Assembly: GCF_029714285.1 (NCBI RefSeq)
Contig: NZ_CP121662.1
Span: 1,116,001 to 1,180,000, forward strand
DNA from: Rhizobium sp. CB3090
GTDB taxonomy: Bacteria; Pseudomonadota; Alphaproteobacteria; Rhizobiales; Rhizobiaceae
Reading direction: 5' to 3'
DNA length: 64,000 nt
Part shown: piece after piece, positions 38,601 through 61,357 of the stretch
How the letters are laid out: every line of letters starts with the position of its first letter
Position numbering within the stretch: position 1 is the first letter of the stretch
Notes under the pieces: model-generated
The model's input: only the letters and a program-made list of their open reading frames with translations
Database searches by the model: none
What the model was told of the DNA's origin: nothing
Program-made: the position numbers and the translations under genes

Positions 38601-38735
38601 GCCATCCGAAGCGTTCGCCGAATTGAACATCCGGCGAAGCTCTTCGATCAGGGCAAGGTTCCGTATGTTGGCCTGCGAGATGATTGCCTCCGCAGACCGA
38701 CGGCGGATATGGGAGAGTGTCGAAAAGGGCTTCAA
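32622..38735 (-). CDS. druE: Druantia helicase DruE (DUF1998 superfamily 2 helicase)
   Basis: 2037 residues from a TTG at 38735 that overlaps the druH stop (TTGA) and has GAGG upstream. The helicase core is complete: Walker A VTSGTGSGKTECF near residue 123-130, DEAH at 257-260 (KWIVLDEAHSL), motif III SATIGSG, and in the middle the motif VI QRVGRAGRRGQ. Several Cys4-type zinc sites are visible (CVNPQC..CPAC, CNDCG, CRRCG..CPVC, CLHCG). The DUF1998 part ends in CPNTGCTTGCAAC near residue 1650. Large DUF1998 helicases of 1800-2100 residues that directly follow DruH define Druantia type III, an anti-phage system whose mechanism is not settled. A DpdJ-type helicase is the main alternative, but dpd genes are absent. 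Confidence 0.8.
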   Translation of the reverse strand: MKPFSTLSHIRRRSAEAIISQANIRNLALIEELRRMFNSANASDGGLLQQPIIEGAHPFVPAETNMGGVPASVLHPQFVAALDALPAGSDYRFPKTRLPFRHQLQAWQHLSASGSPQSVLVTSGTGSGKTECFLFPILSDLVSQATSTTSSLEGVQAVMLYPLNALIESQRERLSAWTKPFGGKIRYCLYNGDLEKSLPASDRRAKPEQQIDREQLRESPPPVLVTNVTMLEYMLARSEDQPIIQKSKGKLKWIVLDEAHSLVGAAAAEIALLLRRVLLAFDCKPEEVHFVATSATIGSGSDVQNQLKRFLADVAGIADANVHVVEGKRQLPDRPSKRGKLPALDQLETLAPKQLFDTLAADDAVWNFIEKKLFESPQPLGEFERIARGVGLDAESFLDVLSQAARPHPRTGEDERLAPMRIHTFERAVPGVWSCVNPQCPGSANGWSFGNVFLDRRDQCPACDAPVLEVISCNDCGEVLLEGEQDAANDRILPTRRVVDKDEFEFEAARDDDGQEEAEDDEAEELEAPAPSIHEKILLGGEASGRFRPMYLSTKDWRIAPFQTDETVAVAYELKGDACPCCATNASKGIDRLLRPMRFGAPFMITNAAPILLEGVDPSHEEGTVPSHGRRLLSFTDSRQGTARMSAKMQAEAERNFVRSFVYHSVQHSLTTGAGADTSKLEADIAGLELALAAAPNVTVENLLAKMKEELTKARGTNSSGIQWQDLVERLARRPEVERWMKDVWEPRDGRLFYDSIKLADFLLMREFARRPRKALSIETLGLARLRFKEIDDQHTMPSAFARYGKTIEDWRAFLYAITTYFMRANAAVAVHSELMHWITPRAKNKYLLGPGQKSNGDKRYKAWPFAPKNAATLSTPQILLINGLGLDISNQEHKSDIEECFDRAWQQLQTLFNSDPENRALDIRKAYIAPMTEGFLCPLTRRILEGAPFGLSPVSRAARHATRRNAERVRLPVLPRPLLGNIDVDAGRAAIKEWLEQSDQIKKLRDEGAWNNISDRVAMFADYARSAEHSAQQESALLRRYEEKFKGGEINILNCSTTMEMGVDIGSVSTVMMTNVPPSIASYKQRVGRAGRRGQPFSLAFTFCRDRPLDREAFLSPTGYLNRNLAAPKVALSSRPIVQRHVNAYLLRCFMLDRGGDPIRMMIGPFIGTPAVVGEKRITLDQRPVHSFKEWLKAPSTLKMVSPNLEKLVKHSVLEGETTLVDTCLQIISELEANFESEWEGLQALAKDEGVKDAGKSRMGFELKRLCEEFLLSALADRGFLPGHGFPTGVVTFLPHKQRNDTPPDGRRTTRLTGPQRSLDLAIRDYAPGSEIVLDGLVHKSAGVLLNWKRPASEDSIRDVQSLKVHWTCRRCGTSDSSRTKLTECPVCAGAVTNNPYLRPAGFSVDVRDKPHAETDIISYVAPEEPSVSVRASPWSSLPIPDLGRFRSSREGAVYYSNRGQSKNGYALCLHCGRASPDYPTLDNGDVDQTVASPLALHAPLRWKKGENAQVCEGNNNAWAVRRNLDLGYEISTDVFELQPSMPSTKATATALVIAMREGIARILGIEADEMGFATQVADAQFGTRSRSMLVFDRAAGGAGFAASIADRLPEVFVEARSVLDCPNTGCTTGCAACVLVPDAPFEEGSLDRLSALKFLDEHLSLHRALSGEDRISKDAVVSINVEDEVDRILMESIRPSVYVYLPETADLGQLANWPANTALEQWLRHSKEVVFVVPESIVHRGDNGGLIALYDLGQRYMKAGGSFPVHVGQPLKLKTGAVAGVAVTSAARTTAWATRDPASWEVSADWGQAATCPIVRGTIDGIAQKQPLEKSSLLPSPSSKFDKITSELDRGLTLFGGAMASRIRGLLGTLGISANIKVTSIVYSDPYVKSPLTAKMFIDTVAALVKGSPSHSVTLSTSAPGGKSGLPMRLHEDWRDSLDAQAVFAEYAIQKGVALTVRFEQVPHGRYMNLKFEDGASATVVFDQGFGAWRVTSTGNLSLHDFRSSPKRQADALARSSASVGKGGFGPTYLVATRD

Positions 38736-41700
38736 GTACGAACCTCGTAAAAGCGGAGAAGATGCGGATAGGCGGATGAAATGTAGCGGGCGTGCTCCCG
38801 AAGCGTCTTGCGAAGCACGAGTTCGCACTGGGAGGTCAGGGTGAGCCGACCGGCGGCGACGGCGGCGAGCGCGGCGGGCGCTGCCATGCCCTCGAAGTCG
38901 TTCACGCTGAATCTGTCGAACTCGGCCGGGAGCTTGATCGCGGCTTCGGTCAGATGCTCGAGAACGAGATTTCGCTGCGACGGTCTGTAGGGACTGTCGT
39001 CGTCGTACATTCGTTGGTCCTTGATGTATCCCTCGAGCGCGCTGTGCAGGGAAGGGAGGGTCGAAGAACCGACGCCGAGTTGTGCGAATCTCAGATCCAG
39101 CGCCGGCTCGAGTGAAACGAGCTTCTCCCTGAGATTCTTGAAATGGCCGACGATCAATTCATTTCGAGTGGTGTCTGGAAACGAGGACAGGGCGGTCATG
39201 AGACCGTCGAACTCGGCCGCAAGCACCGCCTGCCAATCCTTCGTCGGAAGCGTCAGCCATATGAACGGCAGCTTCTCCTGAAGGGACCAAACCGCCTGCC
39301 TCTCGACGTCGCTGCCTGCCGACGTCAGGAGACGCAACAAGGCTCTGGGTCGACGCGCGATTTCCTTCAGGATGTCGAAGGCCGTCGCTGGAAGGCCATT
39401 GAGGCCGCAAGCCAGCGCAAGGAGGTAGCGGACGTCGTCGACTGCAAGCGTGCCGTCCTCGAACGAAGTAAGCACGGTCGCCATTTTCGTCACTCGTGAC
39501 GGTACGTGTGTCTCTGCGAGTGCCGACATCATCGGCGAGGTGGTCGGCCCGCGGACTGGCAGAATGACGAGCAGCGGGCGCGCGACGACGTCCGGGCCGT
39601 CGCGGAGATAGATCAGGCACGGGCCCTCGCACCATGCCGGGATCAAGTAGTTTCCATCGCTCGCCCTCTGCAGGAGATGCTCTCGCTCCGGCTTCAAGAT
39701 CATCCTGACCACGGGAGTTTCGGTGAATTCGGCGCCGAACACGACAGCCCCATGCACGAAGGCCGGGCGGGGATAGCGGTACTGCTTAAGCTTTATCGGC
39801 TGGCGGCTGTCGCCCAGAAACTCCAACTCGAGCATCGCGTCCTGATCCGCCATGGGAGCCATAAGCTCTTCGACGACCGGTTTGAGCGCTGCCAACGGGA
39901 ACTCGCCCGAGAATCGGAACTGCAGGGAGTTGGAGCGCGCGTTCCGCGGAGAGAGCGTCAATGCCGTGGCATGCGGTGAGGCGGCGATCGCGCCCCGGAG
40001 CGCGGTGATGTCCATCTCCTGACCTGGGCCGACTACGGAGCCGTCGCTTAAAAGAATGGAAGCTTGGCGGGTCTTGAGCGGGACGACGATCTCGAAGGGC
40101 CGTCCGCCCGGCGGCCGCAACGACGCGTCGATCCGGAAGCGGGGTCGACCTGTAAAACTGAAGAGCGTTTCATTAACTCCTCGCTCGGTCTCGACGCCGT
40201 TGTCGATTATGTCGATGTCCCATCCGGGAAGACGGTCTAGCGCAATCCGACCGTTGGTCGCGCTCTGCATCTCGCCGAGGATTCGAGCGCCGGCCGGAAC
40301 GATGGCAATCTTTCGCCTTTCAAGCTGGATGTCGGCGATTGGATCGCGCCACGATATCTCGTACACGCCCGGCATCGTAAGCTTCCTGTCGGCGAGTGCC
40401 CTCCAATTTTCGCCGGGATTGCGTACGCGAAGTTCTCCCACTTTGGGTTGGCGAATGCTCCCGCCCGCAAGGATGCCAAGCATGACCGGGCCTTCCAGAA
40501 TTTCCAGGTCACCAGTCGTCTGGATGGGCGATGACCCGGCGCCGGAGATCTCGAGGCTTTCCTGGCGCTCGTCCTTGCCGGCTTCCACCCTGTAACGTTC
40601 GTCCGAACCCGCGCCGGGTTTCATGAAATAGGTCGTTCCCAGGACCTCGTGGACAGTCTTCTTTCCGCTCGCCGGCCACTGTCGGCCGGTGGGGGAGTCG
40701 TCGCCAGGAACGGCCGACCAGCCTGCCGGAACCAGAACGTAGACTTTCGCAGCCGGAAGGCTTGCCGATCCCGTCTTCACCAGCCGTAGCTTTTTCGGCA
40801 CCCCGCCCTCGGTGGCGTTCTCAGGCAGGAACGACATGATCGGAGACATCAGACCGGTCCCGCCAGGCCACGCAAATGGGACCGCATCTGAGCCGCAAGT
40901 GAGATTAACCGTGATGTTTCGATTGAGTTCAAGTCCTACCAGGAGCTTGCCGAGGGGCGTGACGGACCGTACCCGCCACGTCGGCTGGTCGTCGGTCGGT
41001 GGTTCGAAGAGTGCGATCTGACTAGGCAGGAAATTTGCAAGGTCGCCCGAAGGGCTGGCCTTCCATCTGCCCATCGCGGACAGGCCTGGTAGCTTGGCGG
41101 CAGATATCTCGCCTTCGGCATTTAAGAGTAGGGCGGGAAGGAAGCGCTCGCCGTCATACGAAAGATACCGTTCGGCAGTAATGCCGGACGCAACAATCGA
41201 TCCTGCCTTCTCCGAAAGAAGTCCTCCCAAAAGGCGGCGGGCGATCTTCTCGTTATCGGGCGGCACGTAGATAGGGAGCGAGCTCCTCCACTCCGGATTC
41301 TGCGCGTCGAGATAGGAGACGGGATCGATCCCTGCAGGGGCGGCATCAGCTATCCGACGCCATTCGACGAGCTTCATGATCAGTTCGCAGCAGAGGTCGA
41401 TGAATCCTTCCTGACGGTACGAGACGCGCACCATCCAGGACATGTCGTGAGCATAACCGCTGACGTGTTCGGCCGCCGCGCTGGCGAGCGCGAAACGCAT
41501 TACCGTGCGAAGGTAGTCGGAAAGCCACGACGACCCGCCTTCGGAGATCACGTGCGACGAAATCCCGCCCTCGAGAGCAAGCGTTAGAAGAAATTCGCGT
41601 GCGTTGTCCGATCGCACGAGTTCACGCCCCCAGAACTTCAGGCCGATTTCAGCCAGACGGCGGCGGGTACTGTGCGGAATCGCGTCGAAGGCATCGGAAT

Positions 41701-42139
41701 TCAGTTGGTCCCATCTCAAGAATAGGGAGGTCGCTTCTCGTCGAAACCACTCGGCGCAGAATACCACGAATAAGCTCGCGGCGACGCCGTCCTCCCGTAG
41801 GAGACGGTTTGTCGAATTGCGCAAGAGTCCTCGAAGCTCGCCATATTCGCCGTCGTTCATGCGATAGCGGTGCAGCGGACGTCCATCGGGCGACTGCAGA
41901 CTCCGTCTAAACAGATAAGATGAAGTCCAGCGCGCAAGGGTGTCGATAGTCGCAGATGAAGGCTTGGACGTCTTCCTGAGGGCCGTCAACGCACTGACGA
42001 CCTCGAGCTGAAGGTCGAAGGCATCGTCGGAATCGCGTACCTTCAATTCGTTGTTTATGGCTTCCAGTGTTGAGAGATCGCTTCGCCAGCGCTCGAACTC
42101 CTCCCGTAGCCTTTCGTCCGAATACCCTGATAGACGCAA
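38732..42139 (-). CDS. druH: Druantia type III protein DruH (STY4851/ECs_5259-like)
   Basis: 1135 residues from a TTG at 42139 with AGGGGGA six bases upstream. No catalytic motif is recognised. The N-terminal third is helical and the middle is rich in beta-strands with Gly and Pro. Size, position directly before the giant DUF1998 helicase and four-base overlap with it match DruH of Druantia type III, annotated elsewhere as the STY4851/ECs_5259 family. Both genes of the operon begin with TTG, which should keep translation low. The assignment leans on gene context as much as on sequence. Confidence 0.7.
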   Translation of the reverse strand: MRLSGYSDERLREEFERWRSDLSTLEAINNELKVRDSDDAFDLQLEVVSALTALRKTSKPSSATIDTLARWTSSYLFRRSLQSPDGRPLHRYRMNDGEYGELRGLLRNSTNRLLREDGVAASLFVVFCAEWFRREATSLFLRWDQLNSDAFDAIPHSTRRRLAEIGLKFWGRELVRSDNAREFLLTLALEGGISSHVISEGGSSWLSDYLRTVMRFALASAAAEHVSGYAHDMSWMVRVSYRQEGFIDLCCELIMKLVEWRRIADAAPAGIDPVSYLDAQNPEWRSSLPIYVPPDNEKIARRLLGGLLSEKAGSIVASGITAERYLSYDGERFLPALLLNAEGEISAAKLPGLSAMGRWKASPSGDLANFLPSQIALFEPPTDDQPTWRVRSVTPLGKLLVGLELNRNITVNLTCGSDAVPFAWPGGTGLMSPIMSFLPENATEGGVPKKLRLVKTGSASLPAAKVYVLVPAGWSAVPGDDSPTGRQWPASGKKTVHEVLGTTYFMKPGAGSDERYRVEAGKDERQESLEISGAGSSPIQTTGDLEILEGPVMLGILAGGSIRQPKVGELRVRNPGENWRALADRKLTMPGVYEISWRDPIADIQLERRKIAIVPAGARILGEMQSATNGRIALDRLPGWDIDIIDNGVETERGVNETLFSFTGRPRFRIDASLRPPGGRPFEIVVPLKTRQASILLSDGSVVGPGQEMDITALRGAIAASPHATALTLSPRNARSNSLQFRFSGEFPLAALKPVVEELMAPMADQDAMLELEFLGDSRQPIKLKQYRYPRPAFVHGAVVFGAEFTETPVVRMILKPEREHLLQRASDGNYLIPAWCEGPCLIYLRDGPDVVARPLLVILPVRGPTTSPMMSALAETHVPSRVTKMATVLTSFEDGTLAVDDVRYLLALACGLNGLPATAFDILKEIARRPRALLRLLTSAGSDVERQAVWSLQEKLPFIWLTLPTKDWQAVLAAEFDGLMTALSSFPDTTRNELIVGHFKNLREKLVSLEPALDLRFAQLGVGSSTLPSLHSALEGYIKDQRMYDDDSPYRPSQRNLVLEHLTEAAIKLPAEFDRFSVNDFEGMAAPAALAAVAAGRLTLTSQCELVLRKTLREHARYISSAYPHLLRFYEVRT

Positions 42140-43201: not shown

Positions 43202-43617
43202 CCCCTGCCAGAACGAGAGCGGGTCAATATCTGCGAGCTCTACTCCGACAAAACCCCATCGGCGGCTCGAAATTTCCGGCTTCGGAAACGAGAATTACTG
43301 GCCCCGCCGGGGCATGCCACGCCGAGCCGCATCAACAACGCGCACATCTGCGAAACTCTCATACGACGTGCAATAAGCGCAAATTGTTAGGTTTTGGAAC
43401 GCATCTGGCCTCTTGCTCCGGTGTCCGAATGGAGCCCACTTAACTAGAACGCCGCGTCATGTGATGGTTACTAACGAATTCCGTTTGGGGCGCCTTGACG
43501 CCGTAGTTTATGTTCTTTATTTGTTCCATTCATGATTAGGACCCGTCGACAACCGCAACAACGCTGAGAACTGCCGCAAACGCGGCGGATCCCGAAGTGT
43601 TGTTGTGGAGCAAGACG
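43202..43617. other. 416-bp intergenic region with a possible terminator
   Basis: TTGACCC and GGGTCAA (43198-43227) bracket the stop codon of the small gene and may end its transcript. A GC hairpin GGCCCCGCCGGGGC lies near 43305. No coding frame is convincing. Confidence 0.4.
43495..43523 (+). promoter_or_regulatory. Possible sigma-70 promoter of the TnsA-like/FtsH-like operon
   Basis: TTGACG (43495) and TATTTG (43518) are 17 bases apart in an AT-rich patch, about 95 bp before the start at 43618. Confidence 0.3.
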
Positions 43618-44253
43618 ATGAATCCTTCCGATGCAACGGGGCGGTCGACCCTCGACGCCGTCCATCAGCGGCCTGTGCGGTATCGCCCCTACGGCACCGT
43701 CAGGTGCTCGAATCCTTCCTATTTCCGTAGTCAGCTCAGCCGTGATCTAGGTTGCCTCCTAGATGTCGATGACGCCGTCGTTGCCTGGTGCTGCCGACCA
43801 TCCGGGCTCGACGACATCCTCCTGGACATCGGCTGGAAAGGCTCGCCTCCAGATTTTCTGGCTACCTATGCCGACGGTCGTGACGTCTATCTGCACTCCG
43901 TCGAAGGGGAGGGCGATCCTGAGGTTACAGAAGCAGCCGCATGCCGCGCAATGTTGCATCGGTTTGCGACGGCAACGGAGATCCGTACCGGACATCGTCT
44001 TCAGAATGCCAAGGACCTCCTTCGATACACCGACTGCCAGGCGCCGCTGGGCGACCGCATACGGCTCCTTGCGGCGTTGGAACAAGAAGGCACGGCCACG
44101 GTAGCCGAATGCCTGACGGTCTTCCGGGAAATCAATCCCATGGCTGGCTTGGCATCTCTCGTCCTTCATCGATTTGTGAGTATCGACCTCGACGCGGAAC
44201 CAATCGCTCCACATACGACGGTCCGAATTTTCAAGGATAGTGATCATGCATAG
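43618..44253 (+). CDS. TnsA-like (PD-(D/E)xK fold) protein with C-terminal winged helix, active site degraded
   Basis: 211 residues from the ATG at 43618. The N-terminal half follows the TnsA endonuclease layout: a YFRSQLSRDLGCLLD segment where the catalytic Glu normally sits, then AVVAWCCRPS and SPPDFLATYADGRDVYL, which matches the YTPDF.V..ADG...EVK core. The Asp of PPDF is kept but the final ExK is replaced by HSV, so DNA cleavage is unlikely. The C-terminal half (LLAALEQEGTATVAECLTVF..VSIDLDAEPI) looks like the winged helix that follows in TnsA-like proteins. It overlaps the downstream AAA+ protease gene by eight bases. The protein may act as a DNA- or partner-binding adaptor. The family call is from pattern only. 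Confidence 0.6.
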   Translation: MNPSDATGRSTLDAVHQRPVRYRPYGTVRCSNPSYFRSQLSRDLGCLLDVDDAVVAWCCRPSGLDDILLDIGWKGSPPDFLATYADGRDVYLHSVEGEGDPEVTEAAACRAMLHRFATATEIRTGHRLQNAKDLLRYTDCQAPLGDRIRLLAALEQEGTATVAECLTVFREINPMAGLASLVLHRFVSIDLDAEPIAPHTTVRIFKDSDHA

Positions 44254-46114
44254 AAGCTTTGATGCCGACAATTCCTCTCCCGTCCTTGCCCGTGTCACAT
44301 GTTCGCTGGCCCTTCAGAAGTCTCTCCGGAGTCACCCGCCGGTTTATAGCGGCGAGCCATTCACGCTGGCGTTGTTGATCCCGGTGGAAATCAGGAAGGA
44401 TTTCGAGCGCGGGTTCTATGACCTGAAGAATTCGGAAACGGTTCTTGCCGACGTCGATCTTTGTCGGGCGACGACCACCATGAGAGGGAGGTCCGACTAC
44501 AACGATGTCAAGGCGTCGCTCAGGATGAATAAGCGCGTCGTGATATTCCTGGAGAAGCCGGACGACATACCGGCATTTGTCATCGCTGCTGCGGACAAGA
44601 TCGAGGCCGTCCATCCATTCGATGAGACCGTGCTTACCGATGCCGTGAAAGCGGTGCACGAAATCGCGCTCGACCACGAGGACGCGAAGCGAATGTTGGC
44701 ATATCCCATTGTGGATGTCCTCGCAGCGCTACGTCCGGGACGAAGCCACACTGACACGCTGAAGCGGCTTGAGGCTGCGAGAGATAGCACGCTCGACCGG
44801 AAAGTTCGTCCCGTCGAGGAGCTTGCGGGGTACGGCGGCGCGGCGGATTGGGCTCGGATCCTCGTCTCCGAACTGGCCGACTGGCGAAAGGGTGAGTTGC
44901 CGTGGGAGGACGTAGATACCGGCGTGCTCCTGAGCGGGCCGCCGGGCGTCGGCAAGACACTTTTCGCGAGATCCCTGGCAAGAAGCTGCGAATGCTCGTT
45001 TGTCGCGTCATCGCTTGCGCAGTGGCAGGCGGCCGGTCACCTCGGCGATTTGCTCAAGGCCATGAGGGAAACCTTTAGGCTAGCCGCCGAGAGAGCCCCG
45101 ACGGTGTTGCTGCTCGATGAAATCGACAGTATCGGCGACAGGAACACGTTCGCGGGCCACAACGCACAGTATTCCACGGAAGTGGTCGCGGGATTGCTGG
45201 AGTGCCTTGACGGAGCCTATCGTCGAGAAGGCGTTGTCGTTGTCGGAGCGTGTAATCATCCGGATCGCATTGACAAGGCTCTCCTTCGTCCGGGCCGGTT
45301 GGGAAGGCACTATCCGCTGTCGCTGCCCGACACGGAGGCGCGCAAAGGAATCCTGCTCACGCACCTTGGCGACGCCCTAGGGGCTGAAGATCTCGATCGC
45401 ATTGCGGCTGCGACGCTGGGGTTTTCAGGAGCAGATCTCGCACAGCTCGCCAAAGACGGCCAGCGCATGGCGAGAAGGGAGTCGCGAAAGATCGCCGTGG
45501 ACGACGTCCTTTCCTGTCTGCCGCCTGTGGCGCCGATCAGCGGCCCGCTCCGCGACCGCATTTGCATCCATGAAGCCGGTCACGCTGCGGCGGTGCTCGC
45601 TCTCAATGTCGGGCGTCTGACCGGCATTGTTGTCATGGATGGATTTCGTCATGGTGTCGGCATCGGCGGCGGCGTCCATTTCGAGCGGGAATCTCAGCTT
45701 CCGACGACGGAATACTATCTGAATTCCATCGTGGTCCAGCTAGCTGGGATGGCAGCCGAAGTCGTTCTTTTCGGAGACCATCTCGAAGGATCGGGCGGGC
45801 AGGTCGGCAGTGACCTGCAGCGGGCAGCCGATCTCGCCACGAGCATGGTCGCCCAGCTTGGGATGGGCGGGATCACGAACTTCCTCTCAGCGGAAAGCGT
45901 CGACGACCTCGACAGGATCCGGCGCTCGATTCCCAGTGTCAACCAGCGGGTCGAAAAGATGCTCGCCGAACAGTACGAGCGGGCGAAGGAGCTCGTAATC
46001 AAGAACGAGGAGTTCATCTGCGAACTAGCTGTCATCCTCAACTCGGAGGGCGGTGTCGATGGTGATCGGGCGAGGGCATTGTTCGATGCGATGGAGGAAG
46101 CCGATGGCGCGTGA
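44246..46114 (+). CDS. Soluble FtsH-like AAA+ ATPase/M41 zinc metalloprotease
   Basis: 622 residues from the ATG at 44246, which overlaps the upstream stop; a GTG at 44240 is an alternative. Residues 1-190 have no membrane segment, unlike real FtsH, and no known domain. The AAA+ module has Walker A GPPGVGKT (231-238), Walker B LLLDEID (288-294) and the arginine-finger region RPGRLGR (about 348-354). The M41 zinc site HEAGH is at 442-446 with the third ligand Asp in GSDLQRAADLAT near 523. All catalytic parts are therefore present, so it should unfold and degrade proteins in the cytosol. The N-terminal part probably selects substrates. Its partners are a TnsA-like protein and a small protein in the same operon, a set I do not know as a named system. 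Confidence 0.85.
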   Translation: MHRSFDADNSSPVLARVTCSLALQKSLRSHPPVYSGEPFTLALLIPVEIRKDFERGFYDLKNSETVLADVDLCRATTTMRGRSDYNDVKASLRMNKRVVIFLEKPDDIPAFVIAAADKIEAVHPFDETVLTDAVKAVHEIALDHEDAKRMLAYPIVDVLAALRPGRSHTDTLKRLEAARDSTLDRKVRPVEELAGYGGAADWARILVSELADWRKGELPWEDVDTGVLLSGPPGVGKTLFARSLARSCECSFVASSLAQWQAAGHLGDLLKAMRETFRLAAERAPTVLLLDEIDSIGDRNTFAGHNAQYSTEVVAGLLECLDGAYRREGVVVVGACNHPDRIDKALLRPGRLGRHYPLSLPDTEARKGILLTHLGDALGAEDLDRIAAATLGFSGADLAQLAKDGQRMARRESRKIAVDDVLSCLPPVAPISGPLRDRICIHEAGHAAAVLALNVGRLTGIVVMDGFRHGVGIGGGVHFERESQLPTTEYYLNSIVVQLAGMAAEVVLFGDHLEGSGGQVGSDLQRAADLATSMVAQLGMGGITNFLSAESVDDLDRIRRSIPSVNQRVEKMLAEQYERAKELVIKNEEFICELAVILNSEGGVDGDRARALFDAMEEADGA

Positions 46115-46427: not shown

Positions 46428-46608
46428 CAGCTCGCTCTCAAGAGACCCACAGCCTGACTAAAATGCGGATCCGCCAAGGTGGCTTTTGTTAAGGCTGAAA
46501 AATCGAATCCGCGAGCGATAACTCGTTCTTTACCGGCGGCAGACATTTTCCCTCCGAGGCGGCACGTCCTTAAGGTCCTCCGAATTCTTCAGAGCAAATG
46601 GCGTTTTG

Positions 46609-47967
46609 ATGAGCAACGAATTGTCGATTGAACAGCTTTATGAAAAGGCGAAGGAAAATCCTCACTCCGACTATCTGGCCGAGGCGGTCCGATGCTTTAA
46701 TGCGAAGGCTTATCGCGCATGCATTATCATGACGTCCAACGCGGTGTTCACCTATATGCGCGAGTATATGCAGGAACTAGGTAGCTTGCAGGGAGGCGAG
46801 GCCAAACGCGTCACCGCGGCGGTGAACCAGGCCGAATCTTCCTCGAAATCATACGAAGGCGCCTTGTTAACAGCGCTCAGAGAAAAAGAAGCACTTTGTG
46901 TGGATGATCAGCTCGCCCTTAGAGACATCCTCGACAAACGGAATACCGCGGCTCATCCCAGCGGTTCGAGTGCCACCCGTGACGACGCGTACTACATGTT
47001 CAAGAAAGCAGTGGAGCAATTCCTGAGCAGGAAGCTACAATTGCCGGGCATTGCGGTCGAACAATTGCTGGAAGACATCGGACATAAGACCTTTTTTGTC
47101 GATTATGCGCTCGATGACGTAGCTCGAACCGTTGCCGACGCCATGCGCACGATCGATCCGTCTACTTATCCGCGGCTGTTAGGAAGACTCCGCGAAGACA
47201 TCGAGGCGAAGGATGGAAATGCTGAATCGAACTCTCTGATCTTCCTCTGTGGTCTTGCCAAATTGGATCTTCCAAACGTCAACACACAGCTACACCGCAG
47301 CTTCTTTGAAAAACGGAAGGGCTTCGATCCGGTCCGCGACGCTTTCCTCATCGATCTTTGCTTCTCCTGGCCAGCATTTCTTTCGATGACTGTGCATGAG
47401 CACCGTTATCGGCTGGACGACATGTTCGCCAATGCGTTCGAGGGGCTTGATGAACTACCGGCGTGCGACGTGGTCCGCAATCCAGTCGCTCTCCTGAATG
47501 CCATCATCATGGAATTTGGCGCGGGTTCAGCGCGAGCAGCCTACCCTAAAACAACGAGCGTCATTCTTCGCCGTTTCTGTGATGCTGAAGAATTGGCCCA
47601 TCTAGCATCCACGGAGCTTAGACCGGATCTTGTGCAATCGATCCTGGATCTCTTAAACTCCGGAAATCCTGGTGCCGAACCACGTGTGGCTTCGTTTCTG
47701 AAATCGGCGGACTGGGTCTTGGCGAGATCGCTTACCCGTCATGACGTGGAGCAGATTATCCGAACGTTGATGAAGCCCGAATTCCAGGGCGAGGCGCTCG
47801 AAATGCGAAGGAAGGTCTACAGCGATATACCCCATCTACGGGATATCGTGGCGAAGCCGATGCCTCCCATTACGCAACCATTTCGCGCCAAGCACGGCAG
47901 GTCTTCGTATTTCCGGCTGGAGGGCGAGAACTTCGTCCTCGCCCGGCGTGAGTACGCTACCGCCTGA
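46609..47967 (+). CDS. HEPN-domain protein with a long unknown C-terminal part
   Basis: 452 residues from the ATG at 46609; a TTG directly before it is possible. Residues 20-140 form a helical region with AVRCFNAKAYRACIIMTSNA and, at 111-116, RNTAAH. This is the R-x4-H signature of HEPN ribonucleases, set after LRDILDKR as in many HEPN proteins. The remaining 300 residues are helical and unassigned. HEPN proteins act as RNA-cleaving effectors in toxin and abortive-infection systems, which suits the location. No partner nucleotidyltransferase is adjacent. The end overlaps the convergent small gene by 11 bp. Confidence 0.7.
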   Translation: MSNELSIEQLYEKAKENPHSDYLAEAVRCFNAKAYRACIIMTSNAVFTYMREYMQELGSLQGGEAKRVTAAVNQAESSSKSYEGALLTALREKEALCVDDQLALRDILDKRNTAAHPSGSSATRDDAYYMFKKAVEQFLSRKLQLPGIAVEQLLEDIGHKTFFVDYALDDVARTVADAMRTIDPSTYPRLLGRLREDIEAKDGNAESNSLIFLCGLAKLDLPNVNTQLHRSFFEKRKGFDPVRDAFLIDLCFSWPAFLSMTVHEHRYRLDDMFANAFEGLDELPACDVVRNPVALLNAIIMEFGAGSARAAYPKTTSVILRRFCDAEELAHLASTELRPDLVQSILDLLNSGNPGAEPRVASFLKSADWVLARSLTRHDVEQIIRTLMKPEFQGEALEMRRKVYSDIPHLRDIVAKPMPPITQPFRAKHGRSSYFRLEGENFVLARREYATA

Positions 47968-48540: not shown

Positions 48541-49554
48541 GTGGAAATCGTGCAGGAAGGAATCGACGACGTCTTGATGACGCTATATCCGGCGCTCCTC
48601 ACAACGGGTGCTGCGTCCGAGGGCACAAGGGGCGGCATCCTTGAAATACTCGGCGTCACGCTTCATCTGACAAATCCGCTTGCGCGCGTAAGCAGGTCTC
48701 AAGACAGGGGAAAGCCGTTTTCTGCGTTGGGCGAACTCCTTTGGTATCTTCATGGCTCCGACAAACTCGAATTCATCGAACCTTATATCGGTCGCTACCG
48801 TGACGACGCTGAAAACGGGGTCATCCATGGTGCCTACGGTCCGCGCTTTCACGCGATGCGAGGCGATATCAACCAGATCGGAAACATTATCAAGCTGTTG
48901 ACCGATAACCCGAATTCTAAGCGGGCCGTCATCCAGCTTTTCGACGCCGCCGACATCACTCGCCGCTTCAAGGAAATTCCCTGTACGACCACGATTCAGT
49001 TCTTCGTCCGGGAGGGGCGGCTTCATCTGTCTGTGACGATGCGTTCGAACGACGCCTACCTCGGTCTGCCGCACGACGTTTTCTGTTTCACCATGCTCCA
49101 GGAAATGATGGCCCGGAGGTTGGGCTGCGAACTCGGCGAATACTATCATTACGTGGGTAGTATGCATGTCTACGACGCCAGCGTGGCGTCGATGCGAGAG
49201 TATTTCGATGAGGGCTGGCAACGAACTTCGGTAATGCCCGAAATGCCGAAGGGCGATCCCTTTGCGACTGTGAAAAAGTTGATCGCGGTCGAGCAGAAGA
49301 TAAGGCAGGGCGAAGAAGTAGTGGCCGCAAAGGAGTTTTCCGATCCCTATTGGGCAGACGTTATGAGGCTGATCCAGGTCTATTGGGCGACGAGGCTCCG
49401 CAAGACCACGGATATGGCGAAGCTCGAAGCGTTGCGCGCCGAATTCGACAACGACTTCTTCCTGAACTTCTTGTTGCGGCGTCGGAGGATGCGACAGCGC
49501 GCTGTTGTGCCGATCAAAGGAGAGAAGCCCGATGTGGCCGAAAAGGCAGGCTGA
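48541..49554 (+). CDS. ThyA-like pyrimidine nucleotide (hydroxy)methylase with dCMP-type Asp switch
   Basis: 337 residues from a GTG at 48541, longer than cellular ThyA (about 264). The thymidylate-synthase fold is clear: nucleophile Cys148 in EIPCTT (ThyA has PCH), MRSNDAYLGLPHDVF, and the nucleotide-binding SMHVYD. At the position of ThyA Asn177, which selects uracil, it has Asp179 (LPHDV versus LPFNI). This is the same substitution that gives T4 dCMP hydroxymethylase its cytosine specificity. The enzyme therefore probably acts on dCMP or CMP rather than dUMP and uses a folate C1 donor. It overlaps the next gene, a thymine-pyrophosphorylase-like protein, by 23 bp. This is an accessory gene, not the housekeeping thyA. 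Confidence 0.8.
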   Translation: MEIVQEGIDDVLMTLYPALLTTGAASEGTRGGILEILGVTLHLTNPLARVSRSQDRGKPFSALGELLWYLHGSDKLEFIEPYIGRYRDDAENGVIHGAYGPRFHAMRGDINQIGNIIKLLTDNPNSKRAVIQLFDAADITRRFKEIPCTTTIQFFVREGRLHLSVTMRSNDAYLGLPHDVFCFTMLQEMMARRLGCELGEYYHYVGSMHVYDASVASMREYFDEGWQRTSVMPEMPKGDPFATVKKLIAVEQKIRQGEEVVAAKEFSDPYWADVMRLIQVYWATRLRKTTDMAKLEALRAEFDNDFFLNFLLRRRRMRQRAVVPIKGEKPDVAEKAG

Positions 49555-50446
49555 ACATGAGCGACTGGTCGAGGCTTTGCTGAACCATTCCCAGACCACC
49601 CGTAATCTGCCGGGCGTCGGCACAGCGGCCGCTCGTGAAACCCTTGCTATGCAGTTCATTGCGAGCCTCCGGAGGGAGGACTACTACCGTCTCATCCAAC
49701 GAAAGGACGTCGATCCGCGGAAGGCGGATCCCAACTCGGGCGTCTTCGATCCTGAGAGGGCCGTTGCGTACCATATGCAGAATGGCGACGTGGAAGAAGC
49801 TGCGTGGCTGGTATTCCTTATGACGGAGTTTGCACGACCCGTATCGGGCTGGCAGCGCCTGGAGGATGTCTATGGAAAGCTGGGGGCGGGGATCTGGGAC
49901 TGGGGGACGATCAATGCCAACCCTCAGACCATGATCGACTGGATGGCGCAAAACTGGCAACGTATTGGCGGGAAATTCGGCAACCACCGGAAATATGAAA
50001 GTCTACGACCGGATTCCAACAGGAATTTCGCGAACGTCCTTACATCCTACCTCGACTGGATCGGCGAAGATGGGCATCGTCGCTTTTTTGCGAACGTGGT
50101 CCGAGAGAACGGCAACGATCCAGGGGTGCTGTTCGACGTGCTGTACAAAGGCATGAACGTTGCGACCTTCGGGCGTCTCGCTCGGTTCGACTATTTGTCC
50201 TTGATCGGCAGATACGGCATCGCTCCGATTGAAGCCGGGTCTGCATACCTCGACAGCGCGACCGGCCCAGCGGCCGGCGTCCGACTCCTTTTCCTGGGCT
50301 CCAGAACCGACAAGACGCGCGATCGAACCCTTCAATCATGGCTAGATGATCTCGACAAAGATCTGAGAGTTGGCATGGCGGTCATGGAGGACGCTCTATG
50401 CAACTGGCAGAAAAGTCCGTCTACGTTCGTCCACTACAAGGGTTAG
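49532..50446 (+). CDS. Alpha-glutamyl/putrescinyl thymine pyrophosphorylase-like protein
   Basis: 304 residues from the ATG at 49532 with AAAGGAGAG upstream, starting inside the ThyA-like gene. FGNHRKYESL, ATFGRLARFDYLSLIG, YLDSATGPAAGVRLLF and VMEDALCNWQKS are the blocks I associate with the helical alpha-glutamyl/putrescinyl thymine pyrophosphorylase families. In some phages these families act with ThyA homologues to hypermodify thymine in DNA. The protein has no membrane segment. The combination with a ThyA-like enzyme predicts a nucleotide or DNA base modification or surveillance role. The family name comes from recall of conserved blocks and should be tested by profile search. Confidence 0.58.
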   Translation: MWPKRQAEHERLVEALLNHSQTTRNLPGVGTAAARETLAMQFIASLRREDYYRLIQRKDVDPRKADPNSGVFDPERAVAYHMQNGDVEEAAWLVFLMTEFARPVSGWQRLEDVYGKLGAGIWDWGTINANPQTMIDWMAQNWQRIGGKFGNHRKYESLRPDSNRNFANVLTSYLDWIGEDGHRRFFANVVRENGNDPGVLFDVLYKGMNVATFGRLARFDYLSLIGRYGIAPIEAGSAYLDSATGPAAGVRLLFLGSRTDKTRDRTLQSWLDDLDKDLRVGMAVMEDALCNWQKSPSTFVHYKG

Positions 50447-51540
50447 GGAAGCGCGGGGTCGATCTCTTCCCATTTCCAGCGCCGCTTCAAATAGTTCAGC
50501 TTGCTTTTGGGGATCATATCGCGATGTTGCATCTGGCCCACGGTCAGGCCGGGCGCGATGCCGATCGAGACGCTGAATCGGATTACTGAATCTTTGTCCG
50601 GAGTCAATCGCTCGAATTCGGAAGCTCTCAGCCCCGGAATGATGCAGCTCTCGGCGAACTCGTTTGCTTCCTGTTCCTTGTCGTTGAAGGGTGTCTCGTC
50701 GCCGTCCAGAAAAGTATTGGCCTTGTGCAGGACAAGGTGCCCGATCTCGTGAAAGACGGTAAACCAGAACTGATCATCGCTCCGGTAGCGGAAGCTTAAC
50801 AGGATCATCGCCTTGTCGGGGTCGACCATCCGCGCTGCACCGCTGGCCTTGCATCCCGTCGGCGGCCTTACGATGACGAGCGCAACACCGGCTTCGGCGC
50901 AGAGGGTCCTGAGTTTCGGCAGGAAGCTTTGCGGATGCCTGACTCTGGAGAGTTTTCTAATCGCTTCAAGCCGATCCTCGAGATTTCCTGGATTCCAAGG
51001 ACGGGTGTTGATCATGTCGGACTCCAGTTCGCCGCGGCGAAGCCAGAGAAGTGTATCTTCATCAGTCGAAGAGTAAGTGTTCGACGTCCTGAAATCAGTA
51101 TTGCCAATCAGCCGACCATATCTGGACTCCCACGTGCCGACAGTCGGCACGTTGAAATAGACCAAGCGCCGGCGGATCTCCGCCGCCTTCTTCTCGTCCG
51201 TCATCTTGCCGCGTGGCTTCGAGCCGGGAGCGGGTATGGAGAGTACGAGATCGTCGTCCTCGTTTTTGCGAATGCGCTCGACCGCTCGAGTCACCGCTTC
51301 ATCAAAGTTTTCCTGGCGTTTCATCCAGAATTTCGGGTTGGCACCGAGCATCGTCGAGAGTTTGACGGCGTCATCCTCCTGGATCGCCGCAGAGCCGTCG
51401 AGAAGCGCTCGCACTCGTATCATACCATCCTCAAAGAGGCCGGCCAGACGATGAGGGTCGATGTCACGCCGTTGCATGACCGCGCGAATGGAATCGCCGG
51501 GCTTCGAGAACCAGTCGGGTATCGAGCGCTCTTCCATCAT
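50443..51540 (-). CDS. HTH-IrrE (ImmA/IrrE) metallopeptidase antitoxin, HigA-like
   Basis: 365 residues. The N-terminus (IRAVMQRRDIDPHRLAGLFE then AIQEDDAVKLSTMLGANPKFWM) is a HigA-type helix-turn-helix. The C-terminal half has the zinc motif FHEIGHLVLH near residue 262 and a downstream EQEANEFAESCIIP with the third ligand Glu. Such HTH-IrrE proteins act as antitoxins or as protease switches that cleave a repressor. The ATG overlaps the upstream HigB-like stop (ATGA). The gene is convergent with the pyrophosphorylase-like gene and overlaps its end by four bases. Confidence 0.85.
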   Translation of the reverse strand: MMEERSIPDWFSKPGDSIRAVMQRRDIDPHRLAGLFEDGMIRVRALLDGSAAIQEDDAVKLSTMLGANPKFWMKRQENFDEAVTRAVERIRKNEDDDLVLSIPAPGSKPRGKMTDEKKAAEIRRRLVYFNVPTVGTWESRYGRLIGNTDFRTSNTYSSTDEDTLLWLRRGELESDMINTRPWNPGNLEDRLEAIRKLSRVRHPQSFLPKLRTLCAEAGVALVIVRPPTGCKASGAARMVDPDKAMILLSFRYRSDDQFWFTVFHEIGHLVLHKANTFLDGDETPFNDKEQEANEFAESCIIPGLRASEFERLTPDKDSVIRFSVSIGIAPGLTVGQMQHRDMIPKSKLNYLKRRWKWEEIDPALP

Positions 51541-51863
51541 TGTTGCCCCGAAATTTCAATCAGCTTCACATATTGAACGGTGGACCAGTCGACCTGTCCA
51601 GCGTTATCGACCTCCTGGTACTGGTCGATCGCCACGAAGGTGGCCGTGTACACCGAACTAAACGACACTTGAAAGGACATAGTTGCTTTAGACACCAAAT
51701 CCTCCCCAAGGAATTCAAGCCAGTCACGGGCTGTTTCGAACGCTTCCGCTTCAGCGATCATCGTCGTTAGCCGTCCAGCATTGGTTCGCCCATACGCGAT
51801 TTCGGCGTCCTCCAATACGAGGCAACGGCACTTCAATATACTGCTGGCGAACGAGATTTGCAT
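51537..51863 (-). CDS. HigB/RelE-like toxin
   Basis: 108 residues in the order toxin-antitoxin usual for higBA. MQISFASSILKC then AYGRTNAGRLTTMIAEAEA fits the start of HigB-type mRNA interferases (I.F...KLKK...D...A...WG...A.KL..RL..L). The C-terminus VDWSTVQYVKLIEI replaces the usual V.I.E..KHY. The middle is less typical and contains no clear catalytic Lys/Arg set, so activity is uncertain. It overlaps the HTH-IrrE gene by four bases. Confidence 0.6.
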   Translation of the reverse strand: MQISFASSILKCRCLVLEDAEIAYGRTNAGRLTTMIAEAEAFETARDWLEFLGEDLVSKATMSFQVSFSSVYTATFVAIDQYQEVDNAGQVDWSTVQYVKLIEISGQQ

Positions 51864-51939
51864 GCGGGCGCTTATACGAATCTCGCGAGTCGCAGTCTTG
51901 CGAGCGAGGCTTGCGCGGCACTGTAGCGTCCGAATTCCA

Positions 51940-52305
51940 TCATTGCGGAAGGGCCGATCCTTGCGGCTTCGCTGCCTGTTTCGCGCGGATCTTGTCGATG
52001 CGGGACCAGTTGCGCGCGAGCTCAGTTTCGGCGGCGTGGTCCATGTCGACGTTCTGCGCGTTGCAAAGGGCCGCTAGAGTCACGAGAACTCCGCCAATCT
52101 CCTGAACGACTTCTCCTTGATCGCGAGAGAACACATAATCAACGAGTGCTTGGGCATCGGCCCGACTGCATCCGGAAGCCTGCGCAAGTTCCAGCGCCTC
52201 TTCGAGGAAACGATGCGCGCGCTCATGACTGTCGTGATGTGCCAATGGCGGGAAGCAGCTCACGATCCATTCGTGAACTCTTGCCTGGAAGCTATTCGTC
52301 TTCAA
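51940..52305 (-). CDS. MazG-like nucleotide pyrophosphohydrolase
   Basis: 121 residues, all helical. HERAHRFLEEALELAQASGC supplies the first ExxE-type metal motif of the MazG/all-alpha NTP pyrophosphatase fold, and GEVVQEIGGVLVTLAALCNA the second, in which the usual final Asp (E.xxD) is replaced by Gly (EIGG). Such enzymes hydrolyse dNTPs to dNMPs and occur in phage and defence loci. Its proximity to a ThyA-like enzyme and a pyrophosphorylase-like protein makes a shared nucleotide theme plausible, although it is transcribed in the opposite direction. Confidence 0.72.
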   Translation of the reverse strand: MKTNSFQARVHEWIVSCFPPLAHHDSHERAHRFLEEALELAQASGCSRADAQALVDYVFSRDQGEVVQEIGGVLVTLAALCNAQNVDMDHAAETELARNWSRIDKIRAKQAAKPQGSALPQ

Positions 52306-59022: not shown

Positions 59023-59574
59023 TCAGGGTGTACCATTGACCTTTGTCTCAGGAGCGGTCGAGCGATCGGTCCTATCGTCCCGAGGCGACTGGACCGGCCG
59101 AAGCCTCAGGAGCCGACCATTCTCGAGGACACTGACGGATATACGAACCGACGCATCGGACGTGCCCGCAATGATCATGATCGGTTTCGGACATCCGTAG
59201 CTGGTGTCCATCGAAATCGACCGCATTTCCCGGATATCGTTGCTGCTCGGATCAGGGGCGCCGCCGGGATGGGAATGCCACTCGCCGAGATAGTATTCGC
59301 CATAGGCCCACCGGGCGCGAAGTTTTGCTGTCAGTCCGCTGATGCCCCTCTGAAACCAAGCCCTTCCGGAACTAGAGTCAGTGGGGCGTTCCGTGGCTGC
59401 GGTGACGACTGCCACGTTCCCATCATTTCCGTACCGCCCAATGAGGATGCCACCCGTCTCCTTACCAGTCGACGCAAGGGACTCTTTCTCCATCAATCGC
59501 AGGGCGGCGTCAGTCAGACGAACTTCTACGGTCGCGCTGATAGCTTGAAATACCACCACAATCTTCTCAGCCAT
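59023..59574 (-). CDS. cap3: CBASS Cap3 JAB/JAMM isopeptidase
   Basis: 183 residues with a complete JAMM zinc site: Glu39 in GKETGGILIG and His100, His102 and Asp113 in GEWHSHPGGAPDPSSND. In type II CBASS, Cap3 removes the CD-NTase from the targets to which Cap2 attaches it and so tunes signalling. It is the last gene of the operon and overlaps cap2 by eight bases. Confidence 0.88.
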   Translation of the reverse strand: MAEKIVVVFQAISATVEVRLTDAALRLMEKESLASTGKETGGILIGRYGNDGNVAVVTAATERPTDSSSGRAWFQRGISGLTAKLRARWAYGEYYLGEWHSHPGGAPDPSSNDIREMRSISMDTSYGCPKPIMIIAGTSDASVRISVSVLENGRLLRLRPVQSPRDDRTDRSTAPETKVNGTP

Positions 59575-61357
59575 TGAGCTTCTCCACCGTGCCGTCGAAG
59601 CCTTGTCGATAATACAGGCAACGGCGCCCCGGATGTCTTATGGCCTCCAAGATGGCCCTTGCTCCGACTGCGCCCCACATGCGGACATCTGCTGCCGTCG
59701 CCGGAAACACAGGATGCCAGCATCCGATCCCTTCCATGCGGGCGTCGCCGAAATCGGTCGGTGGCACATTCATCTCGTGGAAGCTTTCCTTTGCATCGAT
59801 TGCCGGGAAGGTGGCTTCGGACGCAGTGAACACCAAGAGCCCTTCGGCCCGCCAGGTCATGGCCAGACTGACGAAGGTCGTCTCGCCGCCCCAGTCGAAC
59901 TCCGCCAGGGCATCAAGGACCGCATCCGATCCAGTGCAGTCGATGATGACATCAAACGATCGCAGCTCGTCCGCGAGTTCATTGGTATCCGGAGGAAAAC
60001 TGGCGACGATACCTTTGACATCTGCGTCCGGCATGATCAACGATAGAGCGTTTGCAAGCGCGGTAGCCTTGTCGTGGCCAACCGCATCCATGCCAAGCAC
60101 ATGCCGAGTAAGGTTGCCGACATCCAAAATGTCAGGATCTAGTATTCCCATCCTTGTCACGCCCATACGTATAAGGTTCTCGGAAACGGCGCCACCGAGT
60201 GACCCCGCGCCGATGATCAATACCCGCTCTGAAACCATCCCGGTGCCGAAGCCGGAGCGCGTCCGGATCTGGTCGGGTTCCCAATTGACCGTCCGCAGCC
60301 ACGTCAATGAAGAATTTGCCATCGGTCGGGTGCGATCAATGAAGCGACGGGTCTGCTCGTTCGCGCGAAAGCCATTCTTCTTGGCCTTGCGATCAGACAG
60401 TTCGACTGATCCGACAGCGATCCAGTGGTATTTCGAGGGAGCCTCACCGATCAGTTCCGCGAGCGGGAATCCTAGAAACAGCGTGACCATTCCACGATCG
60501 TCTTTCCGCTGCCGGCGATCGGCGCCAGCGACCTCGAACACATCAGCGAGCTGAACGCCCTGGCTGTCGAGGTGGGAGGAAAGATCCGCCCACGTGCGCG
60601 GCAGTTCCCAAGGTGCCAGCACTGGCAGGTTATCGAGCGAAATCCAGAGGCCCGTTTTTGCGGGAGCTGCTTCAGCTATTGCCCGCCCCCATACCGACTT
60701 TCTTATCGGCGCCAACTGGCGGTCCCGGAAAGTCGTCATCGCGTAGCTAATCTTCGCGCCCGGCAGGTTGGCAAGGTCGACCCATCCCCATTCATTGGTC
60801 CGATCCTGCCAGAATGTCAGGTCGTCGGCTGAGCCAACGAAACCGATAACCGGGAAGTTTGTCTGCCCAGGCCCGGACGGCAGCTCCAGCGGCTCACCTT
60901 CGATCGCGAGCTCGCCCGTGGCGGCCGCGTCGATCCAGATCAGAAGGCGTTCCAGATGCCAGACTATCTTCTCGTCGATCGTGTCAGGTTGGCCATTCCA
61001 GGAGGCGCGCCCGAATACACCCGCTGGACGATCAAGGCAGGGATTTCCCAACCTCCACGGCAGTGATCCACTTCCTTCGCGGTTGAAGGACTGGTGCTGG
61101 AAGGTCGTCGAAATCCCACCGATCATCGCTGGATAAACGGTGATGGATTTCGTCCGCGGAACAAACACGACATACCATGCCGTCTCGGCCGAAATGAACT
61201 CGGTCGAGGCGCCGCTCAGGACGGCAACGAAGGGCAGGGACCAGCGGCCTTCCGAATCCGATGACCACGTAGCGGTGGATCGGATTCGGGGATGATCGGC
61301 GATCTGGTCGGAAACGCTCTGAAGGACTTCGGGTACGAACAACTTCAAGCACCTCAC
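59567..61357 (-). CDS. cap2: CBASS Cap2 E2-E1 fusion conjugating enzyme
   Basis: 596 residues. The N-terminal E2-like domain has its likely catalytic Cys107 in RLGNPCLDRP. The C-terminal ThiF/E1 adenylation domain starts near residue 370 with VLIIGAGSLGGAVSENL (nucleotide-binding glycines), DPDILDVGNLTRH, and the E1 Cys546 in MEGIGCWHPVFP. Cap2 couples the C-terminus of the CD-NTase to other molecules and primes it for second-messenger synthesis during infection. The ATG overlaps the CD-NTase stop by four bases. Confidence 0.88.
   Translation of the reverse strand: MRCLKLFVPEVLQSVSDQIADHPRIRSTATWSSDSEGRWSLPFVAVLSGASTEFISAETAWYVVFVPRTKSITVYPAMIGGISTTFQHQSFNREGSGSLPWRLGNPCLDRPAGVFGRASWNGQPDTIDEKIVWHLERLLIWIDAAATGELAIEGEPLELPSGPGQTNFPVIGFVGSADDLTFWQDRTNEWGWVDLANLPGAKISYAMTTFRDRQLAPIRKSVWGRAIAEAAPAKTGLWISLDNLPVLAPWELPRTWADLSSHLDSQGVQLADVFEVAGADRRQRKDDRGMVTLFLGFPLAELIGEAPSKYHWIAVGSVELSDRKAKKNGFRANEQTRRFIDRTRPMANSSLTWLRTVNWEPDQIRTRSGFGTGMVSERVLIIGAGSLGGAVSENLIRMGVTRMGILDPDILDVGNLTRHVLGMDAVGHDKATALANALSLIMPDADVKGIVASFPPDTNELADELRSFDVIIDCTGSDAVLDALAEFDWGGETTFVSLAMTWRAEGLLVFTASEATFPAIDAKESFHEMNVPPTDFGDARMEGIGCWHPVFPATAADVRMWGAVGARAILEAIRHPGRRCLYYRQGFDGTVEKLNG

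Follow-up and report, generated by a model that had tools for sequence, protein, structure and literature searches.

The aGPT3 module in the window

The 64-kb window analysed here (Rhizobium sp. CB3090, contig NZ_CP121662.1, positions 1,116,001 to 1,180,000) carries a gene for a thymidylate synthase (TS)-like enzyme whose end overlaps the gene of aGPT3, a clade 3 member of the alpha-glutamyl/putrescinyl thymine pyrophosphorylase (aGPT-Pplase) superfamily. The first-pass annotation of this DNA had described a two-gene unit; the pair itself was confirmed, but a convergent gene for a helix-turn-helix (HTH)-M78 protein and two further genes had been overlooked, and the whole module spans 48541-52305, continuing on the minus strand past the TS/aGPT3 pair. 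Searching genomes with the aGPT3 protein as query yielded 38 loci, on which the counts below are based, and all coordinates are positions in the window. The five genes are:

48541-49554, plus strand: TS-fold pyrimidine (predicted dCMP) 5-hydroxymethylase-like enzyme; GTG start, 337 amino acids (aa), PF00303 100.3 bits
49532-50446, plus strand: aGPT-Pplase clade 3 protein (aGPT3); 304 aa, PF18746/PF18724, all-helical model
50443-51540, minus strand: HTH (HigA-like) and M78/ImmA-IrrE-like zinc protease; PF06114, HEIGH motif, convergent with aGPT3
51537-51863, minus strand: small conserved protein, family unassigned; 108 aa, recurring in 26/38 genome loci
51940-52305, minus strand: MazG/PRA-PH-like small helical protein (tentative); 121 aa, recurring in 19/38 genome loci

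The 23-bp overlap of the first two genes noted earlier is exact (49532-49554), the start of aGPT3 having been set from homologues, most of the best 120 of 3507 being 303-306 aa long; the aGPT3 and M78 genes overlap by 4 bp at their stop codons. No PADLOC model matched the TS-like or the aGPT3 protein at E 0.1, and for the 108-aa protein neither Pfam nor PADLOC gave a match that rose above noise.

The TS-like enzyme carries a dCMP-type active site

The TS-like open reading frame (ORF) was aligned with T4 gp42, SPO1 gp29, E. coli ThyA and MilA. The alignment located Cys148 in EIPCT, with PCT in place of PCH, Thr149, Ser169 in MRSND and Asp179 in LPHDV, so that both the nucleophilic Cys and the cytosine-type Asp of pyrimidine 5-hydroxymethylases are present, and the T4 gp42-like site proposed in the first-pass annotation was borne out. 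Cys148, Ser169 and Asp179 fall in the columns of T4 gp42 Cys148, Ser169 and Asp179, which are named in PMC5175136 and PMC6400193; where canonical ThyA has Asn (E. coli position 177) and His (147), the window protein has Asp179 and Thr149. The dCMP-type active site is upheld by Asp179, Ser169 and the nearest PDB sequence, the CMP 5-hydroxymethylase MilA (158 bits, residues 35-300), thymidylate synthases scoring at most 84 bits among the best 60 of 125 matches. The protein falls under every listed NCBIfam TS cut-off, the best model giving 97.8 bits against a cut-off of 327 and another 83.6 against 108.35, and the host genome (6.49 Mb, 4 contigs) contains one other PF00303 gene, a canonical TS with 424.9 bits.

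According to PMC5175136, Asp at this position marks cytosine enzymes, and the A176S/K133R double change switched the preference of MilA from CMP to dCMP; the module enzymes carry Ser (Ser169) at the site of the A176S change. PMC8670742 reports that no positions tell cytosine-modified contigs from unmodified ones better than E. coli TS positions 177 and 147, and that most modified contigs have Asp at 177. Among 57 fetched loci examined for a TS gene beside aGPT3, 53 had one, and Cys148, Thr149, Ser169 and Asp179 were found in 53/53 of these genes, with Arg at position 127 in 32. A wider set of 157 rows was built from the best 120 of 2665 database homologues, taken whatever their neighbours, and 37 locus ORFs; it counts the window twice and probably holds some duplicates. 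The same four residues and Tyr99 were present in 156/157 of these rows, the odd one being an N-terminal fragment from an interrupted gene, while position 127 was Lys in 80 and Arg in 76, and position 145 was Glu in 150 and Asp in 3 (acidic in 153/157, and in 49/53 module genes).

The window protein thus has in common with MilA and T4 gp42 the TS fold, the catalytic Cys, the Asp for cytosine, the Thr after Cys and the acid at -3 from Cys (Glu145), and it mixes a T4 gp42-like Ser169 with a MilA-like Lys127 (MilA Lys133). The hydroxymethylation signature proposed in PMC6400193 combines an acid at -3 from Cys with Ser/Thr two before the active-site Tyr. In the window the acid and the Tyr are present, but Gly97 stands where T4 gp42 has Ser94 and MilA has Thr, and the acid is missing in 4/53 module TS genes. 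On the residues taken together, dCMP is predicted as the substrate with good confidence and hydroxymethylation as the reaction with less. Unlike MilA and T4 gp42, the module enzymes form a clade of their own, in bacterial modules with aGPT3 and the protease: in a TS tree of 32 rows, 19 bacterial module enzymes grouped together (support 96/97), and SPO1 dUMP hydroxymethylase and the enzymes of PaMx11, Epa5, ISTP3, Montesquieu and Molly_5, all with Asn, made up another clade (95/98); T4 gp42, MilA and others lay on long branches with unsure placement.

aGPT3 belongs to the aGPT-Pplase/ADDT superfamily and pairs with Asp-type TS

The assignment of the second protein to the aGPT-Pplase/ADDT superfamily held in a profile search, with 390 bits for PF18746 (E 7e-117, cut-off 25) and 244 bits for PF18724 (ADDT; E 2e-72, cut-off 26.2). 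PF18724 takes in both aGPT3 and the solved 5-phosphomethyl-dU (5-PmdU) glycinyltransferase PUGT (PaMx11 gp46, 8z2m); PaMx11 gene 46 matched 8z2m over its full length (686 bits, residues 1-292) and PF18724 with 97 bits. PUGT was the top fold neighbour of the aGPT3 model; Foldseek of aGPT3 in PDB returned nothing at E 0.001; against a viral library, the best Foldseek match of the model was a mycobacteriophage ADDT (1.2e-4). The aGPT3 sequence profile gave chance matches only in PDB, and the hhalign probabilities of this profile against the single proteins of PaMx11, Epa5 and ISTP3 were low (1.9-18.5). Epa5 and ISTP3 carry PF18724 genes and Montesquieu a PF18723 gene; a viral scan with the Montesquieu protein as query found no relative, and PF18723 was not found in the host genome in a search that matched no control either.

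The first-pass annotation had pointed to a mismatch between a cytosine-type first enzyme and a thymine-type second family. The mismatch is real at the level of the partners, 53/53 module TS enzymes being Asp-type, whereas for phage ADDT, aGPT-Pplase clades 1-2 and PUGT the partner TS carried Asn in each of four phages examined, namely PaMx11, Epa5, ISTP3 and Montesquieu. Within the material examined, clade 3 pairs with Asp-type TS and the phage families with Asn-type TS. Because of this difference, 'thymine pyrophosphorylase' is probably a misnomer for clade 3; the word 'thymine' probably came into the Pfam name from the phage clades and does not describe clade 3 itself. The uracil-type (Asn) partner of phage thymine hypermodification is replaced here by the Asp179 enzyme, and no 5-hydroxymethyl-dU DNA kinase recurs in the module across the 38 loci; unlike the phage ADDT/PUGT pathways, the module is protease-linked and without a recurring kinase.

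TS, aGPT3 and the M78 protein are inherited as a mobile unit

The TS gene lies upstream of aGPT3 in 35/38 genome loci, either adjacent or separated by one or two genes, which places the pairing beyond chance. Downstream of aGPT3, 36/38 loci have the HTH-M78 gene on the other strand, and the TS/aGPT3 pair stands tail to tail with it in 35/38; TS is missing at L038, where the contig begins inside aGPT3, and at L039 and L040, and M78 at L039 and L040. The TS gene touches or overlaps that of aGPT3 in 31 of the 36 three-gene loci (window included; the measure overstates overlap), and a UDG-like gene separates them in the other five. The stop codons of aGPT3 and M78 are -20 to +38 bp apart in 34/36, with the exact 4-bp overlap in 12, the window among them. 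Pairwise distances of TS, aGPT3 and M78 correlated at 0.90-0.92 (35 loci, window in, L004 out), compared with at most 0.43 in 999 permutations, a correlation that reflects joint inheritance of the three, not function. Besides the genes named in this work and overlapping shadow ORFs, no gene recurs in more than 5 of the 38 loci. In the L004 copy the TS gene is split by a DDE transposase gene (PF01609; L004:6254-7222), and L039, L040 (a short match only) and L054 hold aGPT3-like genes without TS or M78 in the DNA examined.

PF18746 was found in 7/148 genus genomes and 4/398 sampled phylum genomes (the own genome in both counts). TS and M78 accompanied it at 6/6 other genus loci and 2/3 other phylum loci, the exception being L054 (3.8 kb examined). 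Three of the six genus copies are only 37-42% identical in aGPT3 and TS, and several acquisitions are therefore likely. aGPT3 was matched in 8 of 72,556 plasmid records, and the 4 inspected all (4/4) carried TS, aGPT3 and ImmA/IrrE in the same order. Six IMG/VR viral contigs matched aGPT3 and 6/6 carry the trio, two of them looking like near copies of each other; tblastn of aGPT3 against 50,697 phage genomes gave no match at E 0.01. These results demonstrated a conserved, mobile module. At L042 the module sits on a Pantoea plasmid with genes annotated as ddrA, head processing, lysis and tail-fibre assembly, annotations that suggest a P1-like phage-plasmid.

The protease gene and the accessory proteins

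The N-terminus of the convergent protein matched HigA antitoxins in PDB (best 4.4e-10), HExxH is invariant in 14 M78 protein sequences, and the M78 protein matched the PADLOC model PD-Lambda-2_B at 1.4e-19 in the window and 3e-27 in L030. The HTH and M78 protein is common to the module and to PD-Lambda-2 or ImmA-IrrE defence or toxin-antitoxin systems; unlike these, the module has no recurring toxin, and the M78 gene is accompanied by TS and aGPT3, to which it is convergent. Known ImmA/IrrE proteins work by cleaving repressors, and a switch role is predicted for the HTH-M78 protein on this ground. A shared operator between the TS and protease-operon promoters was rejected on word comparison: the two promoters in the window share no word of at least 8, and the longest common words averaged 6.6 (none counted as 0), compared with 6.15 for mismatched loci (35 loci, window in, L004 out). 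Consensus promoters numbered 3 versus 2.1 in shuffles, and terminators 2 versus 4.5.

The 121-aa protein has an EExxE ... E motif that we take to be like that of MazG. A MazG match was obtained for 3/18 members of its family (best 2.8e-4), and the family profile matched a PDB pyrophosphatase at E 0.0049; because neither Foldseek nor VIA-align found a PDB fold match, the MazG-like label is kept tentative, and a nucleoside-triphosphate pyrophosphohydrolase is possible. A protein of ~265 aa is encoded between TS and aGPT3 in L031, L033, L034, L036, L037, L068 and L069 (5/38 genome loci and 2/6 viral loci), with a DUF4031 gene also in between in L031 and L033. Its motifs, GLNPSN and an FNHNIQSS-like one, are presumably the GLNPSN/NHN-like motifs of a UDG. 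Four members scanned gave no Pfam match, PDB gave no support, and hhalign gave none against the three UDG loci of the genome; the label, kept tentative, rests also on a legend of PMC13092281 that lists UDG. The ~265-aa protein is possibly kin of Brig1-type 5-hydroxymethylcytosine (hmC) glycosylases.

Defence-island setting

The defence-island setting of the earlier annotation was supported, since the module in the window lies between Druantia III and CBASS genes. The neighbouring features are:

32622-42139: Druantia type III pair; DruE 2249 bits, DruH 1568 bits (PADLOC)
43597-46114: FtsH-like AAA+M41 protein (IetA match) and overlapping 218-aa partner
46606-47967: PD-T7-3-like protein, possible defence gene; PADLOC 1.4e-6, DUF4145 under cut-off
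59023-63998: CBASS-like operon; JAB, E1-E2, nucleotide cyclase 543 bits, SAVED-PDDEXK effector 671 bits (PADLOC effector model)

In L003 and L026, too, the FtsH-like/218-aa pair precedes the TS module, as does the AAA gene in L029. Of 138 flanking ORFs selected in other loci, 101 (from L003-L026 and L028-L030) were scanned, without a control set; among the first 25 of 183 family rows, PADLOC matches at 1e-10 included IetA (3 members), GajB (2), type I restriction endonuclease (2) and RT/DRT models (2), and Pfam found many ordinary genes as well.

In the DefensePredictor study (PMC13092281, 2026, Science), aGPT-Pplase is a predicted, unvalidated defence domain and the thymidylate synthase domain a validated one; the domain names in its Figure 3 legend include TS, dNMP kinase and 5hmdU kinase, and the figure legend that highlights aGPT-Pplase lists HTH and UDG as well. 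The cytosine-type partner and the protease arrangement are not discussed in the portion of that text covered, and literature searches that left likely sources uncovered turned up no published account of either. The independent prediction of aGPT-Pplase as defensive favours a conflict role for the module.

Proposed function and alternative explanations

We infer the reaction products, the activation of hmC (no kinase was found), the control logic and an antiviral role from what was shown above: the genes present, the residues of the active site, the unit kept together across loci, its patchy and mobile occurrence, and the similarities of family and fold. The module probably represents known pyrimidine hypermodification chemistry in a version directed at cytosine and used in conflict; more specifically, and tentatively, we read it as a mobile conflict module that would make 5-hydroxymethyl-dCMP and then decorate it under protease control. 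The TS-like enzyme would add a one-carbon unit from methylene-tetrahydrofolate to C5 of dCMP, Asp179 selecting cytosine and Ser169 favouring deoxyribose, with 5-hydroxymethyl-dCMP as the most likely product. T4 dCTPase makes dCMP from dCTP, and by analogy the MazG-like protein may do the same in the modules that have it. aGPT3, a homologue of the phage 5-phosphomethyl-dU glycinyltransferase, is proposed to decorate the modified cytosine, whether in nucleotides or in DNA, by joining an amine or amino acid to its C5 methylene. By analogy with its relatives, the HTH-M78 protein would keep the module off, sense infection or DNA stress and switch it by proteolysis, and the product would hinder phage replication. 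A bolder proposal, which we consider unlikely, makes clade-3 aGPT a cytosine hypermodification branch, a protease-gated immune module of the cell producing amine-decorated 5-hydroxymethylcytosine without a DNA kinase; the C5-methylene intermediate of TS might then be handed straight to aGPT3, whose gene overlaps that of TS.

The most serious competitor, though rather improbable, is that the module makes a nucleoside antimetabolite, a toxic free cytosine nucleotide or nucleoside, with DNA not the target, comparable to mildiomycin clusters with MilA and the N-glycosidase MilB. The nearest PDB sequence, MilA, is indeed a secondary-metabolism enzyme, Lys127 in the window is MilA-like, and the glycosylase-like gene between TS and aGPT3 in some genome and viral loci would fit, its UDG identity being tentative. 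However, Ser169 in all 53 module TS genes and Arg127 in 32 of them indicate deoxyribonucleotides, no transporter or resistance gene is conserved across the 38 loci, and the phage relatives of aGPT3 act on DNA. That the pair is simply a second ordinary thymidylate synthase with an unrelated neighbour is very improbable and was rejected: the TS fold and catalytic Cys would allow it, but the scores under the NCBIfam cut-offs, Asp179, the separate canonical TS of the host and the joint inheritance with aGPT3 and M78 all argue otherwise.

Two further explanations place the action on DNA. In one, which we judge improbable, aGPT3 with its glycosylase-like fold, with or without the UDG-like protein, would recognise hmC or its derivatives and directly attack phage hmC DNA, as Brig1 does. 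The other, about as improbable, has the module hypermodify host DNA for its protection, supplying the modification side of a restriction system; the homology to phage enzymes of DNA hypermodification speaks for such self-marking, but replacing host C in bulk would be costly, the distribution is patchy, and no nuclease gene recurs in the 38 loci by sequence clustering, which would not join unrelated nucleases. A conserved restriction partner was rejected on this last result.

If the conflict-module reading is true, bacteria would turn viral DNA-hiding chemistry against viruses, aimed at cytosine, and the aGPT-Pplase domain would gain a concrete substrate and a five-gene unit, with a misleading family name corrected.
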